IMG/VR virus record: IMGVR_UViG_3300028800_000069
Span: 18,728 to 82,727 of that record
Source: a virus
DNA: 64,000 bases
Direction: 5' to 3' (one strand)
This document shows, piece after piece, positions 4,985 to 53,426 of the stretch (position 1 is the first letter of the stretch; each line of letters begins with the position of its first letter). The notes beneath the pieces were generated by a model. That model was not told the DNA's origin. It did not search any database and saw only the letters and a program-made list of their open reading frames with translations. Position numbers and translations under genes: made by a program.

Positions 4985-5069
4985 GTACAGCTACGTATCA
5001 CAATGAGATTTCCCTGCAAATGCAATGGGTTAGCTACGCAGTGGTCCTGCCATCTTGTTGTAAACAAAA

Positions 5070-5220
5070 GGAAAGTTACCGTCCTAGCACATTTCCTAAC
5101 TTTCCCGTACCTCAGGGCCGGGACGTTACCGTACGGGAACACCCTAGCGAGAGCGCCAGGGTCATGTCGGGGACAGGGCCGTGCGTGTGGTACACGCCTC
5201 CGCGTAGTCACCCCCACGCG
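5070..5220 (+). ncRNA. Candidate structured RNA segment
   Basis: Several clean helices occur in about 150 nt: 5070-5077 with 5098-5105 (8 bp), 5102-5110 with 5131-5139 (9 bp, overlapping and so alternative to the first), 5141-5145 with 5158-5162 (5 bp), 5183-5188 with 5192-5197 (6 bp) and 5201-5205 with 5216-5220 (5 bp). No coding signal is evident. Strand is assumed to follow the flanking genes. Confidence 0.4.
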
Positions 5221-5466
5221 CTGGAAAGGGTGGTCCGTTTAGGGGGTATCTCCGGGTCCGTTCTGCCCATAGATTCGCCTGACCTTCGCTGTGTCGATCA
5301 GCACACACCGCTAGGCATTCGCTACTGTCAAGCTGACCACCCCATGGCATTCGCTATGCATTCGCCCTGCGTGCCCTATGCTCAGGTACTCACGGCGTAC
5401 GCCATACGCTTTCCCTTCGCTGCCGCTGCCGCTGGTGTCGAGGCAGGAGAGAGCAGAGCACAGGGT

Positions 5467-5532
5467 ATTCGCCACGCATTCGCTATGTCATTGACAACAC
5501 AGGATCGAGGCATTCGCCACGCATTCGCTATG
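5467..5532. repeat. 21-bp direct repeat, period 45
   Basis: The 21-mer ATTCGCCACGCATTCGCTATG is exact at 5467-5487 and 5512-5532. Shorter relatives (GCATTCGCTATG, GCATTCGCTACTG) lie at 5314 and 5347, and the 13-mer GCATTCGCCACGC recurs inverted at 5993-6005. Could be protein-binding iterons or remnants of duplication. Confidence 0.6.
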
Positions 5533-5691
5533 CAATGGTTGAGCGAGTGGCCAAGCGCATCCGAGGACATTGCTGTGGACAGGGGCGGGGAACCTGATCC
5601 CTAGCGAATACTTAGCGAACGCATTGCGGTGAGCGTAGCTAACGCCTAGGGGAATGAATAAGATAGAGCGAAGGAAAGGCAAAGCTATGTG

Positions 5692-5720
5692 CTACAACCT
5701 GTAGTGTTACACCATGTAAC
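5692..5720. repeat. Palindromes, copies 2 and 3
   Basis: CTACA-ACC-TGTAG at 5692-5704 and GTTACA-CCA-TGTAAC at 5706-5720 sit 1 bp apart. Both share the 3-bp centre and the TGTA half-site with the copy at 4970. The paired arrangement resembles a double operator. Confidence 0.5.
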
Positions 5721-6247
5721 AAAGCAAGGCAAGGGCTGGGCATGTGCTAAGAGAATACCGTTTCAATATGATAGATAGGGTTCTGCCTTGCAATCCTGAA
5801 CTGGCTCGAAGCATGGCAAAGGTACGGCTGGGAACGGTGAAGGAACAATGCTACCGCATGGTATCTGCCTGTCTTCTCCTTCTATCAGTCACTCCGACTC
5901 ATGCGCGAGAATGCGAACGTACAGCGTACGCTTTGTGCTGGTGCTGGTGCTGGTGCATTGCCGATTCGAGAACAGAGAACGGCATAGCAGACGCGTGGCG
6001 AATGCAGGATCGATTCCTAGGCGGTTTCCCTGCCGCTGGCTGCGTGATTTATCCTCCTGTGACAGTCAGAGCCTCCGCGCCGGGTTCGAGCGTAGAATCG
6101 ACGCCTAGCAGGCACATAGATAATGAGAAATGCGTGTAAGTTCTACGCAGTCAGTGATATAGCACCAACGTGCAGAACACATGGCACTAAAGTTGTAATC
6201 AGGCAAACTTTATTTCCTTTGTTTGCAACACTTTGGCACTGAAGTGC

Positions 6248-17842: not shown

Positions 17843-17904
17843 TTAACATTCCCAGTCAACTTAACCGAGCATTGGAGGCAACGTGGAAAACCTGTTTGAA
17901 GTAA
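17764..17904 (+). CDS. Tiny membrane protein (overlapping)
   Basis: 46 aa. ATG 17764 follows GAGGAGGACTTACC, one of the strongest ribosome sites in the area. One membrane helix (AAIAGVAVLVGWRLWLH) then a short amphipathic tail. It overlaps the preceding gene by 79 bp and the RtcB gene by 22 bp, each in another frame. Confidence 0.45.
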   Translation: MCVVCTEAAIAGVAVLVGWRLWLHRVINIPSQLNRALEATWKTCLK

Positions 17905-19127
17905 TCGATGCAGGCAACGGAAAGATTGTGAAGGCGTGGAAGCGTGGTGTACCTTTCGAAGAGGGAGCCATAGAGCAACTGAAGAAGACCGCACAGATGC
18001 CGTTTGTGTTCCGCCACGTAGCAGCCATGCCAGATACGCACATAGGTGTGGGAGCCACGATTGGAACTGTGCTTCCGACCAAAGGAGCATGTATACCATC
18101 AGCCGTGGGAGTGGATTTAGGCTGTGGAATGATCGCACAGCGCTACACTTTCACACGCAAAGAACTGGAAGCCGTAGGACTTGCCAAGATTCGTGCCGCG
18201 ATTGAGGCGGCAGTACCGTGCGGACGAACCAACAACGGTGGGCCGGGAGATCGCGGAGCATGGGGCAACGTGCCTCAAAACATAGTAGATGTATGGGCAC
18301 GAGAGTTCAACGATGCGTACGAAATTATGTGTGCAAAGCATCCCGGCATGAAAGCACGCAACACATACAACCAGCTTGGCACACTTGGTACAGGAAACCA
18401 CTTCATCGAACTGTCCGAGGATGAGCAGGGGCGCGTGTGGCTAGTGCTGCATTCTGGATCACGAGGGCTGGGCAATAAGATCGGAGTGTATTTCACTGAT
18501 GTTGCCAAGCAGTTGTGTGCTAAATGGTTCATCACTCTGCCTGACCCTGACCTTGCGTATCTGCCTGTAGACACGCAGGAGTTTAAGGACTACAAAGATG
18601 CTGTGCAGTTGGCGCAGAGGTTTGCATGGCAGAATCGTTTGCTGATGGTAGATCGCATTCAGCACGTGCTGTCGGATGTAATGCATGAAGTTCAAGGAGT
18701 GCAGTGGGGAGCGATTGAAGAAGTCCACTGCCATCACAACTACATTTCATGGGAGAGACACTTTGGCGAAAACATCATGGTCACTCGCAAAGGTGCAGTT
18801 CGCGTGCAGGCTGGAGAGCTTGGCATTATCCCCGGCTCTATGGGAGCACGGACCTACATCGTTGAAGGCTTGGGAAATCGTGAATCATTCTGCACGTGTT
18901 CTCATGGAGCAGGCCGAGCTATGGGACGCAAGCAAGCTGAGCGGACCTTCACTGTTGCTGAGCATGCCGCTGCGACCGCAGGTATTGAGTGTGATAAGAC
19001 AGCGGATACGCTTGACGAAACCCCAGCTTGCTACAAGTCAATCGAAGCGGTAATGGCAGCGCAGGCAGACATCGTAAAACCTGTGCACATACTCAAACAG
19101 TTCCTTAACGTGAAAGGAAAGAAATAA
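17883..19127 (+). CDS. rtcB: RtcB-type RNA ligase
   Basis: 414 aa, GTG start at 17883 with TTGGAGGCAAC upstream. RtcB joins 2',3'-cyclic phosphate or 3'-phosphate ends to 5'-OH RNA ends using GTP and manganese. Signature residues are present: D78 and C81 (VGVDLGCG), H173 (GTGNHFIE), H190 (LHSGSRG), the HCHHNY cluster near 282-287, GSMGA near 318-322 and H341 (CSHGAGRAMGR), the guanylylated histidine. Slightly shorter than bacterial RtcB. With the second RNA ligase at 38671 and the phage tRNAs it suggests repair of RNA cut by host nucleases. Confidence 0.92.
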   Translation: MENLFEVIDAGNGKIVKAWKRGVPFEEGAIEQLKKTAQMPFVFRHVAAMPDTHIGVGATIGTVLPTKGACIPSAVGVDLGCGMIAQRYTFTRKELEAVGLAKIRAAIEAAVPCGRTNNGGPGDRGAWGNVPQNIVDVWAREFNDAYEIMCAKHPGMKARNTYNQLGTLGTGNHFIELSEDEQGRVWLVLHSGSRGLGNKIGVYFTDVAKQLCAKWFITLPDPDLAYLPVDTQEFKDYKDAVQLAQRFAWQNRLLMVDRIQHVLSDVMHEVQGVQWGAIEEVHCHHNYISWERHFGENIMVTRKGAVRVQAGELGIIPGSMGARTYIVEGLGNRESFCTCSHGAGRAMGRKQAERTFTVAEHAAATAGIECDKTADTLDETPACYKSIEAVMAAQADIVKPVHILKQFLNVKGKK

Positions 19128-38670: not shown

Positions 38671-39816
38671 ATGAGCAACAGCACGCATCGAGTTAATGTA
38701 GTTCGCATCGAAGAGATTCTGCCTCACCCAAACGCCGACACGCTGGGCATTGTGTACATCGGAGGCTACCAGTGTGTGGTGAAGAAGGACGCGTACAAGG
38801 TTGGAGATTTGGCGATCTACGTTCAACCTGATACAATCGTTCCTGCCGTCAAGCAGTTTGCTTTTCTGTGGGACGACCGAGAGTTCCCCGGTGGAGTCCC
38901 TGAGCGTAAGCGTAGGGTCACCGTACGGAAGTTCCGCAAGGAATGGAGCGAGGGACTGTTAATGCCCATCCTAGAGTTCTTGGACCCGTACAACCCAAAG
39001 ATTCACCCGTTGGATTGGGCTGAGGGCGACGACGTGGCGGAACTGCTGGGCTTCACGCACTACGAAGAGCCAGAGCCTGCGCAGAACACGCAGCAGCACG
39101 GTAAGCAATACAAGGGCTGGCCGAAGTCGCTACGAGGGTGGTTCTACTTCATCCTTGCCAAACTGTACATCTACCGCCCTGCGGTTTATGGAGCGGACTG
39201 CACCAAAGCACCTAAGCAGTTCGCCCCTATTTATGATGTGGAAGGGTTCAAAAATTACCCACGCACATTCGCAGAGGGAGAGGAAGTTGTAGTCACGGAG
39301 AAAATCCATGGCAGCAACGCGCGGTACATGTTCGACGGCGAGAAGATGCACGTGGGTTCCAAGAACCTGTGGAAGTCCGAGAAGTCAACGTGCATCTGGC
39401 GCAGGGCGTTGAGGGAGTTGCCTTGGATTGAAGAGATGTGCAGAGCATACCCTAACATCACCTTCTACGGAGAAGTTACCCCTACACAGAAGGGCTATGC
39501 ATACGGTTGTGCAGAAAGAGAAGTAAGACTCTTTATATTCGATATGCTTCTTCCTGACGGTAGGTGGGAGGACAAGCAATGGTTCACTAGATGGACTACA
39601 GAGCCAAGCCGAGTGGTACCTGTGCTGTACTCAGGTCCGTATGACGAAGCAAAGATCAAGGCGCTGGTAGAAGGGCCGTCTGCTGTGCCGGGAGCTAAGC
39701 ACATCCGAGAGGGCATTGTAATTAGCTCAGCAGTAGAACGCACAGTGCGCGGCCTAGGTCGAGCGCAGCTTAAACTGAAGTCCATGAAATTTCTTGAAAA
39801 GGATGGTAAAGAATAA
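38671..39816 (+). CDS. RNA ligase, DraRnl (Rnl5)-like
   Basis: 381 aa, ATG 38671. Nucleotidyltransferase motif I is TEKIHGSN with K211 as the adenylated lysine; motif III FYGEV near 267, motif IV EGIVIS near 350 and motif V LKLKS near 369 follow in order. An N-terminal OB-like domain (VVRIEEILPHPNADTL ... VKKDAYKVGDLAIYV) precedes the catalytic domain, as in the Deinococcus DRB0094 ligase family. Such ligases seal 3'-OH/5'-phosphate RNA nicks, a chemistry different from RtcB. Both types in one phage point to broad RNA repair. Confidence 0.85.
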   Translation: MSNSTHRVNVVRIEEILPHPNADTLGIVYIGGYQCVVKKDAYKVGDLAIYVQPDTIVPAVKQFAFLWDDREFPGGVPERKRRVTVRKFRKEWSEGLLMPILEFLDPYNPKIHPLDWAEGDDVAELLGFTHYEEPEPAQNTQQHGKQYKGWPKSLRGWFYFILAKLYIYRPAVYGADCTKAPKQFAPIYDVEGFKNYPRTFAEGEEVVVTEKIHGSNARYMFDGEKMHVGSKNLWKSEKSTCIWRRALRELPWIEEMCRAYPNITFYGEVTPTQKGYAYGCAEREVRLFIFDMLLPDGRWEDKQWFTRWTTEPSRVVPVLYSGPYDEAKIKALVEGPSAVPGAKHIREGIVISSAVERTVRGLGRAQLKLKSMKFLEKDGKE

Positions 39817-47308: not shown

Positions 47309-48379
47309 ATGGCACTCTTCGGCACTGCACCAAAACGTGTACTAGACCTTACCAAGCGCAATCCAATTCTTGATCCTATGCTGAAGAAGATGTCTACTCG
47401 CCTAGTGGGCCAAGAGTATGCCTCGCAGGTGCTGGTGGATATGGTCGCTGTGCACCTATCAGGACTAGGCGCTCCCGGTAGGCCAGCAGGCAACGCGCTA
47501 TTGTTAGGCCCTACAGGGTCCGGCAAGACGCACGCTGTGGAAGTGCTATGCGAGGGTCTGGTGGGAGACCCTAAGGGCATGCTTAAGATAGACTGCGCAG
47601 AGTTTCAGCACAGCCACGAGATCGCTAAGTTAGTTGGCTCACCTCCGGGCTATCTGGGACACAGGGAAACTCCTCCACTCTTGACTCAGAAGCGGTTGGA
47701 CGATTTGCACAAAGACCGCATGCCACTTAGCGTGGTTCTGTTCGATGAGATTGAGAAGGCTTCGGACGCGCTGTGGCAGTTGCTGCTGGGCGTGCTCGAC
47801 AAGGCTACGCTCACTCTCGGAGATAATAGTGTAACCAACTTCGAGAAGTGCATCATCATCATGACTTCTAACCTTGGCGCTAAGCAGATGCAAGTCAAAC
47901 GCTTTGGGTTCAGCACAACCGATGCGGTGGAGATCGTGGATGACAGTAGGCTGGACGATGTAGCCAAGCAAGCTGCCAAGAAGCACTTCACGGCAGAGTT
48001 CATGAATCGTCTGGATCACGTGGTGACCTTCAAGACTCTGACCAAGGAGCAGATTGCTCAGATCATGGAGATTGAGCTAGGCATTATCCAGCAGATGTTC
48101 TGGACTAAGGCCAAGTTCCTTTATCAGCTTACCCCGGCAGCGAAGTTCACGTTGTTGGAGGAAGGCTACAGTCAGGAATACGGTGCGCGAGACCTAAAGC
48201 GTGCCATTGAACGACGTGTACGTCTACCGTTAGCTGGCCTAGTGTCATCGGGGCAAATCGCACCGGGAGATGCTTTGGTCATCGACCAGATCAATCCCAA
48301 GGACGAGAAGTTTGAGTTTTCGATTCAGAGCTTGGCATCAACCAAAATCACATTCAAGGACGTGGAGAACATTCTATGA
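47309..48379 (+). CDS. Clp-type AAA+ ATPase (single module)
   Basis: 356 aa, ATG 47309 after AAGGAGAACACC. Walker A GPTGSGKT (67-74), GSPPGYLGH near 110-118 (pore-loop block of ClpA/ClpB D2), Walker B VVLFDE (142-147), TSNLGA near 192, FMNRLDHVV near 231 and YGARDLKRAIERR in the small domain. It is equivalent to the second ATPase module alone, with no N-domain or D1. No partner ClpP gene is seen. Might remodel phage or host proteins during replication. Confidence 0.8.
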   Translation: MALFGTAPKRVLDLTKRNPILDPMLKKMSTRLVGQEYASQVLVDMVAVHLSGLGAPGRPAGNALLLGPTGSGKTHAVEVLCEGLVGDPKGMLKIDCAEFQHSHEIAKLVGSPPGYLGHRETPPLLTQKRLDDLHKDRMPLSVVLFDEIEKASDALWQLLLGVLDKATLTLGDNSVTNFEKCIIIMTSNLGAKQMQVKRFGFSTTDAVEIVDDSRLDDVAKQAAKKHFTAEFMNRLDHVVTFKTLTKEQIAQIMEIELGIIQQMFWTKAKFLYQLTPAAKFTLLEEGYSQEYGARDLKRAIERRVRLPLAGLVSSGQIAPGDALVIDQINPKDEKFEFSIQSLASTKITFKDVENIL

Positions 48380-48810
48380 AATACATTATCGAGTTCAAGT
48401 TAACAAACGGCGGTTGGTTGCGTTCCAGTAACGGCCTAAAGACCGTTAAGGATGCAGCAGGGCACCATGGAACGTACGAGTTTGATAGCCTGAAAAGCGC
48501 AAAGAAAGAAATTGCCGCGCAGACAGACGGGCTTGAATACCGTGCTGTTCTTGTAGAAGTAGAAGAGGCAATTGCTACGTCTATCGCCGCGCCCATTGGT
48601 ATCGATCCTCTTTTCAAAGGCCATACACTAAGCGCTGTGGGCCAGAACAAAGCAGTAGAGATCGCAGAGTTGTTCACTCAGCTAATCGTGGGTTTGGACA
48701 GCATTTGTCCAAAGGGACGCGAATTCTCTATTGTCCGCACCAAGCTGGAAGAGGCTTCATTCTACGCTAAGAAGTCCCTCATCAGTTCCAAAGCAAACCT
48801 AGAGCAGTAA
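48376..48810 (+). CDS. Acb2/Tad1 hook-domain-like protein (anti-defence)
   Basis: 144 aa, ATG 48376 overlapping the AAA+ stop. N-terminal 60 residues are a separate beta-rich domain. The C-terminal part (about 80-140) has VGQNKAVEIAELFTQLIVGL, then a Gly-Arg-Glu and FSIVRTKLEEASFYAKKSL, matching the R-E-x-S-x-x-x-T-K-L-E-E-A pattern of the Acb2/Tad1 hook family. Acb2 binds cyclic nucleotides of CBASS and Tad1 binds Thoeris signals, blocking host suicide. Assignment is from remembered family pattern; the ligand is unknown. Last gene of the rightward unit. Confidence 0.65.
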   Translation: MKYIIEFKLTNGGWLRSSNGLKTVKDAAGHHGTYEFDSLKSAKKEIAAQTDGLEYRAVLVEVEEAIATSIAAPIGIDPLFKGHTLSAVGQNKAVEIAELFTQLIVGLDSICPKGREFSIVRTKLEEASFYAKKSLISSKANLEQ

Positions 48811-48832
48811 AGTTCTTAGAGCAAAAAAATTG

Positions 48833-48869
48833 CCCCACCGATTCCCGAAAGGGAGTTGGTGGGGTTTTT
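48833..48869. terminator. Bidirectional terminator
   Basis: CCCCACC 48833-48839 pairs with GGTGGGG 48858-48864, with an inner TCCC-GAAA-GGGA hairpin. T-run at 48865-48869 serves the + strand and the A-run at 48824-48830 serves the - strand. Sits between convergent modules. Confidence 0.85.
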
Positions 48870-48876
48870 CTTGTTT

Positions 48877-49251
48877 CTAGCTAACTTCTGGCGCTGACGA
48901 TACGTTGCCTGCGGCTGTGGTAATGCTAGTGCTGGACACCGTGAGATTCACAGTGAGCACTGCATAGATTCCAGAACCTGTAATTGCGGTGACCACACCT
49001 TTTACCGTGATGTCGTCCCCGGCTGCTCCGTAGGCATTGCCATACGTACGTGCAGCGTGACTTGCGTCTGCTGACTGCTCTACTGCATTGCAATCGTTCG
49101 CTTGGATGTTGAAGGTGCCAGTATCGAGCGGAGCTTGGCACGTCACCGTAGCGAGCGAGCCGGACCCAGAGACTGAAACTACCTTAGCGATGATAGACAC
49201 GTGAGCGTTGACAGCTACCGTGCCGCCGTTCTTGTTGATGCCTGTTGCCAT
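48877..49251 (-). CDS. Structural-type beta protein
   Basis: 124 aa, start at 49251 with GAGGATTCAAC upstream. Rich in Val, Ser, Thr and Ala with repeated short strands and almost no charge, typical of virion decoration or tail proteins. No family recognised. Last gene before the bidirectional terminator, downstream of two tRNAs. Confidence 0.6.
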   Translation of the reverse strand: MATGINKNGGTVAVNAHVSIIAKVVSVSGSGSLATVTCQAPLDTGTFNIQANDCNAVEQSADASHAARTYGNAYGAAGDDITVKGVVTAITGSGIYAVLTVNLTVSSTSITTAAGNVSSAPEVS

Positions 49252-51601: not shown

Positions 51602-51774
51602 TACCCTAGCGTGACCTTTCCCAGTGCCTTTAGCTTTGCGTTGAGTTCTTCTTTGGTTAAGCCGTATGTTCCCCGTTCAAACAGTGCTACTCCGGGGACT
51701 ACGACCTTACCGAGTCCATAGGTGTAAGCTCTAGCAGACTCGGTGCGAATGATGTATTCCTGTTGTTCGCTCAT
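51601..51774 (-). CDS. Small hypothetical protein
   Basis: 57 aa. Start at 51774 (MSEQQEY) since AATGGAGAGC precedes it; a start three codons earlier would overlap this site. Gly/Val/Lys-rich alpha/beta. Overlaps genes on both sides by 1-4 bp. Confidence 0.55.
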   Translation of the reverse strand: MSEQQEYIIRTESARAYTYGLGKVVVPGVALFERGTYGLTKEELNAKLKALGKVTLG

Positions 51775-53399
51775 GCTCTCCATTTTCCATTGTACATCGT
51801 TACTATGGCCCGTTGCCCTGAAGGGTACGTGACGGTGTGTGAATGCGACCAGCTACTAGGACCATGGCAATAATCCCATTTCAGCTTTGTGCTGGTTCCT
51901 GCTACGTACAAGCCATTCCAGATTCCTGCGCTGTGCGTGTGCGCTGTGTTGGCGCGTCTACCTACTTTTTGCAGGTTCTGTGGTGTGCCACGTGCTCCAC
52001 TTGGGCCTAGGTGGCCATGCATTCCGCATTCGATTTTACCATTGCAGATGACGAATGATTCATCAGTGCGCAGGAACTGAATCGACTTCGGGCAGTTGAA
52101 CTTTTGCATTGCCCACTCTAGCATGTGGAACCGTTCATCCCCACGCTCTAAAGCTTCGTACGTGGCATCTTGTGCCTGTAGGAAGAAGCGAGCGTTCATT
52201 GGGTCTAATCGGTAGTCATGCTCTTGCAGCCAGCGCGTGATCCAGTTGTCGTGATTCGAGTCCACAACAACAGTCTTGCACCATGGCCGCTCATACGTGG
52301 CAACTTTACTTACAGTCTGTCTGACTTCATCAGCAACCGAGGACAGTCCGCGTAGGTACGCCTTGTACTTCGCATGACAGTTCTTCGCTTCGTGGTGGTT
52401 AACTGATACGCCTTCCATGACATCGTGCAGGAACTGTGTGCTGGGCCTCAATGCATCCAGCATCTCCTGAGACAATGCCTCTACGTTCGGGTCTAGCATG
52501 GTAGCGTGTAAATCTCCCCATGTAATAGACTCAATTTTATTCCCGGTGGTTACTTTTCCGTTCTTCACCAATACGTCTAGGTCTTGTAACTCGCAGTCTT
52601 CATGCGCTGCACCTACTTGGCGTACGAACCAGTTTCCATCGTGGTTGACTTCTACTACAAGGCAGGCGTATGCATGGTGATGCTCAGCCTTTAGTCCAGC
52701 CTTCTTTTGAATGTAATTCTTCAGTGTGCAGGCACCTGTAGTATAGTTTAACTTGGTGCCCTCGCCTTGCATAGTTGCAACTGACCGCATTGCCAATTTG
52801 ACATGCGGGAAGATTGCAGATTTGCGATGCGAGTACGTCTCCAGACCAGAGAGAGGATCGTCCGAGGTGGGCATGATATTCATTTCGCCACACCAGACCA
52901 GACCTTCACCAAGTTCAATGCGATCATCGGAAATGAAAGGTTTGATGAGCGGATCGTACCATAGTTCTTTCTCTACTGGTTTTGCTTTGCCTTTCTTCAC
53001 AGCCAGTTCACCGTAATGGTTCTGGTTGTAAGAGAAGGTTCCTACCATGATCTTCGCGTCATAGTGCTCAGCCAACGCTGTGAGATTACGCCAAAAAGGT
53101 TTATTCACATACGTATTATTCTGAGCCGCAGTCAAGATGTACCGTTCGACGTGGTTCTTGGTTGGAAGTTTTGCTTGCTCCTCTACGATGCCTTTTACGG
53201 AGCCAGCCGCGAGCGGTCTCTTAATGCCGCCCATCTTTTCGATGTGGTGATGAACAGTGCCGCGAGCCAAGCCCATTTCCTGAGCAATAGCAGCGACATT
53301 GCCACCGTGTTTGGAGTAGAGTTCCGCGATGCGCTCACGCTGTAGTTCTGCGTGATTCTTACGTTCAGCGTGTGCGACGTGTTGTTCTACCTGTCCCAT
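51771..53399 (-). CDS. A1-like metallophosphoesterase with HTH
   Basis: 542 aa. ATG 53399 is preferred because GAGGAACCA precedes it; the frame is open to a GTG at 53420. N-terminal 60 residues include a helix-turn-helix (GGNVAAIAQEMGLARGTVHHHIEKMG). The remainder has calcineurin-like metallophosphoesterase motifs: GDLHA near 298, VVVDSNHDNW near 391-400 and AHTHS near 502. T5 protein A1, needed for second-step DNA transfer and host DNA breakdown, is of this type. Driven by a strong promoter directly upstream. Confidence 0.7.
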   Translation of the reverse strand: MGQVEQHVAHAERKNHAELQRERIAELYSKHGGNVAAIAQEMGLARGTVHHHIEKMGGIKRPLAAGSVKGIVEEQAKLPTKNHVERYILTAAQNNTYVNKPFWRNLTALAEHYDAKIMVGTFSYNQNHYGELAVKKGKAKPVEKELWYDPLIKPFISDDRIELGEGLVWCGEMNIMPTSDDPLSGLETYSHRKSAIFPHVKLAMRSVATMQGEGTKLNYTTGACTLKNYIQKKAGLKAEHHHAYACLVVEVNHDGNWFVRQVGAAHEDCELQDLDVLVKNGKVTTGNKIESITWGDLHATMLDPNVEALSQEMLDALRPSTQFLHDVMEGVSVNHHEAKNCHAKYKAYLRGLSSVADEVRQTVSKVATYERPWCKTVVVDSNHDNWITRWLQEHDYRLDPMNARFFLQAQDATYEALERGDERFHMLEWAMQKFNCPKSIQFLRTDESFVICNGKIECGMHGHLGPSGARGTPQNLQKVGRRANTAHTHSAGIWNGLYVAGTSTKLKWDYCHGPSSWSHSHTVTYPSGQRAIVTMYNGKWRA

Positions 53400-53426
53400 T
53401 GGTTCCTCATTGAGTTCCACGTATTT

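Follow-up and report, generated by a model that had tools for sequence, protein, structure and literature searches.

Does the gene at positions 48376–48810 (plus strand) encode a sponge for cyclic-nucleotide immune signals, and what is the domain that precedes its helical part? The window, i.e. the whole stretch of 64,000 nucleotides analysed here (positions 18,728–82,727 of record IMGVR_UViG_3300028800_000069, a virus contig of 82.7 kb), belongs to an uncultured T5-like phage. In the hexamers of Acb2 and Tad1, a central channel takes up cyclic trinucleotides, and pockets between protomers take up cyclic dinucleotides or gcADPR; the bound molecules are not degraded (PMC12043709).

The gene and its genome setting

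The open reading frame, proposed in the original prediction, is a genuine gene of 144 codons, encoding an orphan N-terminal domain followed by an Acb2/Tad1 hairpin. At the local composition, a stop-free run of this length has a chance probability of about 8e-4. Using codon statistics trained on the larger genes of the same phage, we obtained coding scores of 0.33 bits per codon for the N-terminal half and 0.37 bits per codon for the C-terminal half, compared to −0.12 or lower in the five other frames, and codon usage is like that of other genes of the phage. Because one uninterrupted frame scores as coding across both halves, there is no sign of a fusion created by mis-assembly or frameshift.

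The start codon is preceded at a distance of 8 nt by a Shine-Dalgarno-like GGAG (48364–48367, plus strand), and it overlaps, as ATGA (48376–48379, plus strand), the stop codon of the upstream gene, assigned by Pfam to a ClpB-type AAA+ ATPase (47309–48379, plus strand). A terminator-like hairpin of 15 pairs (9 G–C) with a T-rich tail (48832–48865, plus strand) follows 21 nt after the end of the gene. The gene closes a rightward block containing genes for DNA polymerase, a DnaB-type helicase, RecA, RNA ligase and deoxynucleotidase, and it faces a leftward block that includes a T5 A1-like DNA transfer protein. None of the known anti-defence genes is adjacent to it.

The T5 A1-like DNA transfer protein (51771–53420, minus strand) matches phrog_1745 (E 2e-171) and shows up to ~50% identity to proteins of Pseudanabaena, Rhodobacter and Dinoroseobacter phages. 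The protein encoded at 48877–49251 (minus strand) has conserved counterparts in both sister phages, L002 and L003, and a second similar open reading frame is found in the same genome (L026, 6117–6326, minus strand). The phage also encodes two RNA ligases, one of RtcB type (17883–19127, plus strand; Pfam E 1e-112) and another (38671–39816, plus strand; RNA_ligase/PHA02142), which together could mend tRNAs cleaved by nucleases of the host's defence.

The C-terminal hairpin

Residues 83–134 (48622–48777, plus strand) are clearly an Acb2/Tad1-type hairpin, as had been predicted from the helical pattern of the C-terminal domain. The search against the family profile, PF24729, gave 35.6 bits (E 1.1e-8), exceeding the curated gathering cut-off of 27, and all residues of the R.....TK.EEA core of the two-helix hairpin are present. 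The absence of a profile match, one half of the outcome named beforehand as speaking against the prediction, was therefore not observed. The signature second helix, REFSIVRTKLEEASFYAKK, spans residues 115–133 (48718–48774, plus strand). In the single-chain AlphaFold model, helices are formed by residues 87–110 and 115–136 with pLDDT values of 95–97. The best Foldseek match is PDB entry 9ptq (TM 0.81 of the target, rmsd 1.5), with E = 0.026 for the whole chain, of which the N-terminal half is modelled unreliably. The same entry, titled 'Acb2 homolog 43 in complex with 3'cADPR', is the match in a sequence search of solved structures (E 6e-4). A search of the PDB with a 19-sequence profile retrieved 9ptq at 1e-12 and T4 Acb2 (Vs.4) at 3.5e-4; against Tad1 chains this profile scores weakly (E 0.32), with the RE.....T..EEA helix aligned. 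The top matches in a viral fold library are mostly named as Acb2/Tad1 hairpin proteins.

Scans of IMG/VR yielded 80 loci and, from these, 71 distinct hairpins, nearly all of which are, judged by their reading frames, stand-alone proteins of ~70 amino acids with the start codon located just ahead of an LFxVHxLN segment. None of the 71 relatives deviates at R115, K123, E125, E126 or A127, and the 144-amino-acid protein has these residues too, along with T122 and K133 (97% of relatives) and, overall, 27 of 34 consensus positions. Since the stand-alone start segment and the core are both retained from about residue 75 onwards, the C-terminal part has everything a stand-alone relative has: residues 75–144 (48598–48807, plus strand; IDPLFKGHTLS..G start plus hairpin) constitute a complete stand-alone-type sponge module.

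In genome contigs beyond IMG/VR, only one distant hairpin member was found (Roseovarius mucosus). Gene product 102 of Mycobacterium phage BigBubba (L122, 617–814), recorded as a hypothetical protein, matches PF24729 with E 5e-16 and adjoins a gene for a ClpP-like protease; according to a paper on that phage, its genome encodes a protein that sequesters cyclic oligonucleotides. The 144-amino-acid protein itself matches phrog_1454, a family comprising many small phage proteins annotated with unknown function. Its link to an Acb2 homolog solved with 3'cADPR suggests that many phrog_1454 proteins are anti-Thoeris or anti-CBASS factors.

The N-terminal segment

The prediction of an N-terminal beta domain holds in so far as residues 1–74 (48376–48597, plus strand) form a distinct segment of 74 amino acids; its beta character is suggested only by a model of low confidence (pLDDT 48.5), folded from two sequences. 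This model places strands at residues 4–8, 14–18, 21–25 and 31–35, a helix at 39–49 and a further strand at 54–58, an order that is weakly predicted and renders a beta-rich fold plausible. We found no relative of residues 1–74 in (i) Pfam, PHROGs and PDB sequences, (ii) tblastn searches of phage records, (iii) a peptide-pattern scan of IMG/VR, and (iv) eight related phage contigs, and a fold search with the low-confidence model returned no meaningful match. We do not claim homology to the stretch that follows the hairpin in the L002 protein (BLAST E 0.22, shuffle p 0.007), because unrelated open reading frames score as high. Higher-scoring local matches in L026 look compositional.

Sister phages and fused forms

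Close relatives of the AAA+ gene (76–77% identity) were found only on contigs L002 and L003, and in both a hairpin gene lies 3' of the AAA+ gene with one or two small open reading frames in between. The L003 protein consists of the hairpin alone (75 aa), whereas the L002 protein (5034–5894; 286 aa) has an N-terminal hairpin followed by a C-terminal extension. Tunturiibacter phage Tunturi_5 encodes a protein 51% identical to residues 151–272 of the L002 protein, which hints faintly at an acidobacterial host. A second N-terminal fusion is encoded on L058 (880–1710), where ~200 residues (PGLWCHW..., EKFYHYVEWLEYLIEHFL...) without a Pfam match precede a C-terminal hairpin. A poorly resolved tree of 68 columns places the hairpin of the 144-amino-acid protein together with its counterparts from L002 and L003 and does not unite the three fused proteins. 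The simplest reading would be that other domains have been attached repeatedly to a stand-alone sponge.

In three phages the gene lies 3' of a gene for a ClpB-type AAA+ ATPase, which also bears on a different role for the hairpin, namely that it no longer binds immune signals and has been repurposed, for example to serve the fused domains or the neighbouring AAA+ ATPase as an adaptor or assembly module. The differing fusion partners and the PHROGs listing of family members without a function agree with such a role. We nevertheless regard it as improbable: all invariant core residues are kept, by its title, the nearest solved relative has an immune signal bound, and most relatives are free-standing and lack such an AAA+ neighbour.

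Proposed function

The 144-amino-acid protein is, in our assessment, probably a counter-defence sponge of the Acb2/Tad1 family in which 74 N-terminal residues were added to a complete module. Support comes from the homology of the hairpin, the preservation of the family core and the conserved position of the gene in the sister phages. As the conserved core is retained, the mode of action of Acb2 and Tad1 is the best inference for this protein as well. The C-terminal 70 residues would fold into the two-helix hairpin and assemble into hexamers as in Acb2 and Tad1, cyclic signalling nucleotides would be trapped at the hexamer interfaces, and CBASS or Thoeris effectors would consequently not be activated, so that the infected cell would not kill itself. 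We infer oligomerisation, ligand binding and immune evasion from the known family members; assembly of the usual kind might be changed or prevented by the N-terminal domain.

Most likely, the protein would bind a cADPR isomer, a cyclic tri- or dinucleotide, or both. For the cADPR isomer we rely on the title of 9ptq, the nearest solved relative, which names 3'cADPR; this match points to that Thoeris signal as a candidate. Conserved basic residues, e.g. K133, would presumably fit cyclic trinucleotides, as we assume from the structures of Tad1 and Acb2.

The N-terminal residues may enlarge a pocket, as the beta domain of Tad1 does, or have a function of their own. Our leading guess, weakly held and drawn by analogy to the Tad1 beta domain, is that they extend or cap the ligand pocket. 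We consider it rather unlikely that they represent a new ligand- or partner-binding module, turning the protein into a two-headed counter-defence factor and hairpin sponges into a chassis repeatedly given new domains; if this were true, the protein might, for example, bind a further type of signal or tether the sponge to a defence protein of the host. The three sister phages, with hairpin alone, with an N-terminal domain and with a C-terminal extension, provide a natural series suited to asking how added domains alter the ligand range of a sponge. The 144-amino-acid protein puts a probable hairpin sponge into a lineage of T5-like phages known from metagenomes.

Comparison with known Tad1 and Acb2 proteins

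We compared the protein to Tad1 from SBSphiJ7 and three homologs. Tad1 consists of an N-terminal antiparallel four-strand beta-sheet and two C-terminal helices (PMC12043709). Tad1 of SBSphiJ7 and of a C. botulinum prophage (PDB 7uav) resembles the 144-amino-acid protein in having an N-terminal domain followed by the hairpin, and both share the RE.....T..EEA helix; the hairpin families of the two proteins join in hhalign with 91%. Since Tad1 has a beta domain ahead of its hairpin (PMC12043709), this layout is not new, contrary to what had been suggested; the unusual feature is an N-terminal sequence without a detectable relative, Tad1 included.

The shared order of parts, the similar length (144 vs. 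120–142 aa; Tad1 layout in PMC12043709) and the weak strand prediction would suit a true Tad1 with a diverged beta-sheet domain as its N-terminal segment, the gcADPR pocket being formed jointly by this domain and the hairpin. The sequence comparison makes this quite unlikely. The Tad1 profile aligns to residues 1–73 with an hhalign probability of 0.3% over 16 columns, so that a Tad1-type N-terminal beta-sheet domain is not recognizable by sequence. The Tad1 motifs FNAPHxF and, at the C-terminus, REQ.G.EGTH are absent. The hairpin is nearer to stand-alone Acb2-like proteins, all of whose features are present from residue 75. As the N-terminal parts do not align and the Tad1 motifs are missing, the protein should not be called Tad1.

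Among its closest counterparts are stand-alone hairpin proteins of the phrog_1454 type in IMG/VR (e.g. L003, L008 and L034), which are 40–65% identical to the C-terminal module and share all of it, including the F..H.L...G start, but comprise ~70 amino acids and lack the N-terminal domain. Acb2 homolog 43 (9ptq) shares the two-helix hairpin and the REx.......TKLEEA.F.A.KA signature, with ~31% identity over 62 columns, but is 76 amino acids long and likewise has no N-terminal domain. T4 Acb2 (Vs.4, PDB 7uq2) has the signature second helix in common (profile E as given above) and carries a short N-terminal helix before its hairpin (PMC12043709), where the 144-amino-acid protein carries a domain of 74 residues.
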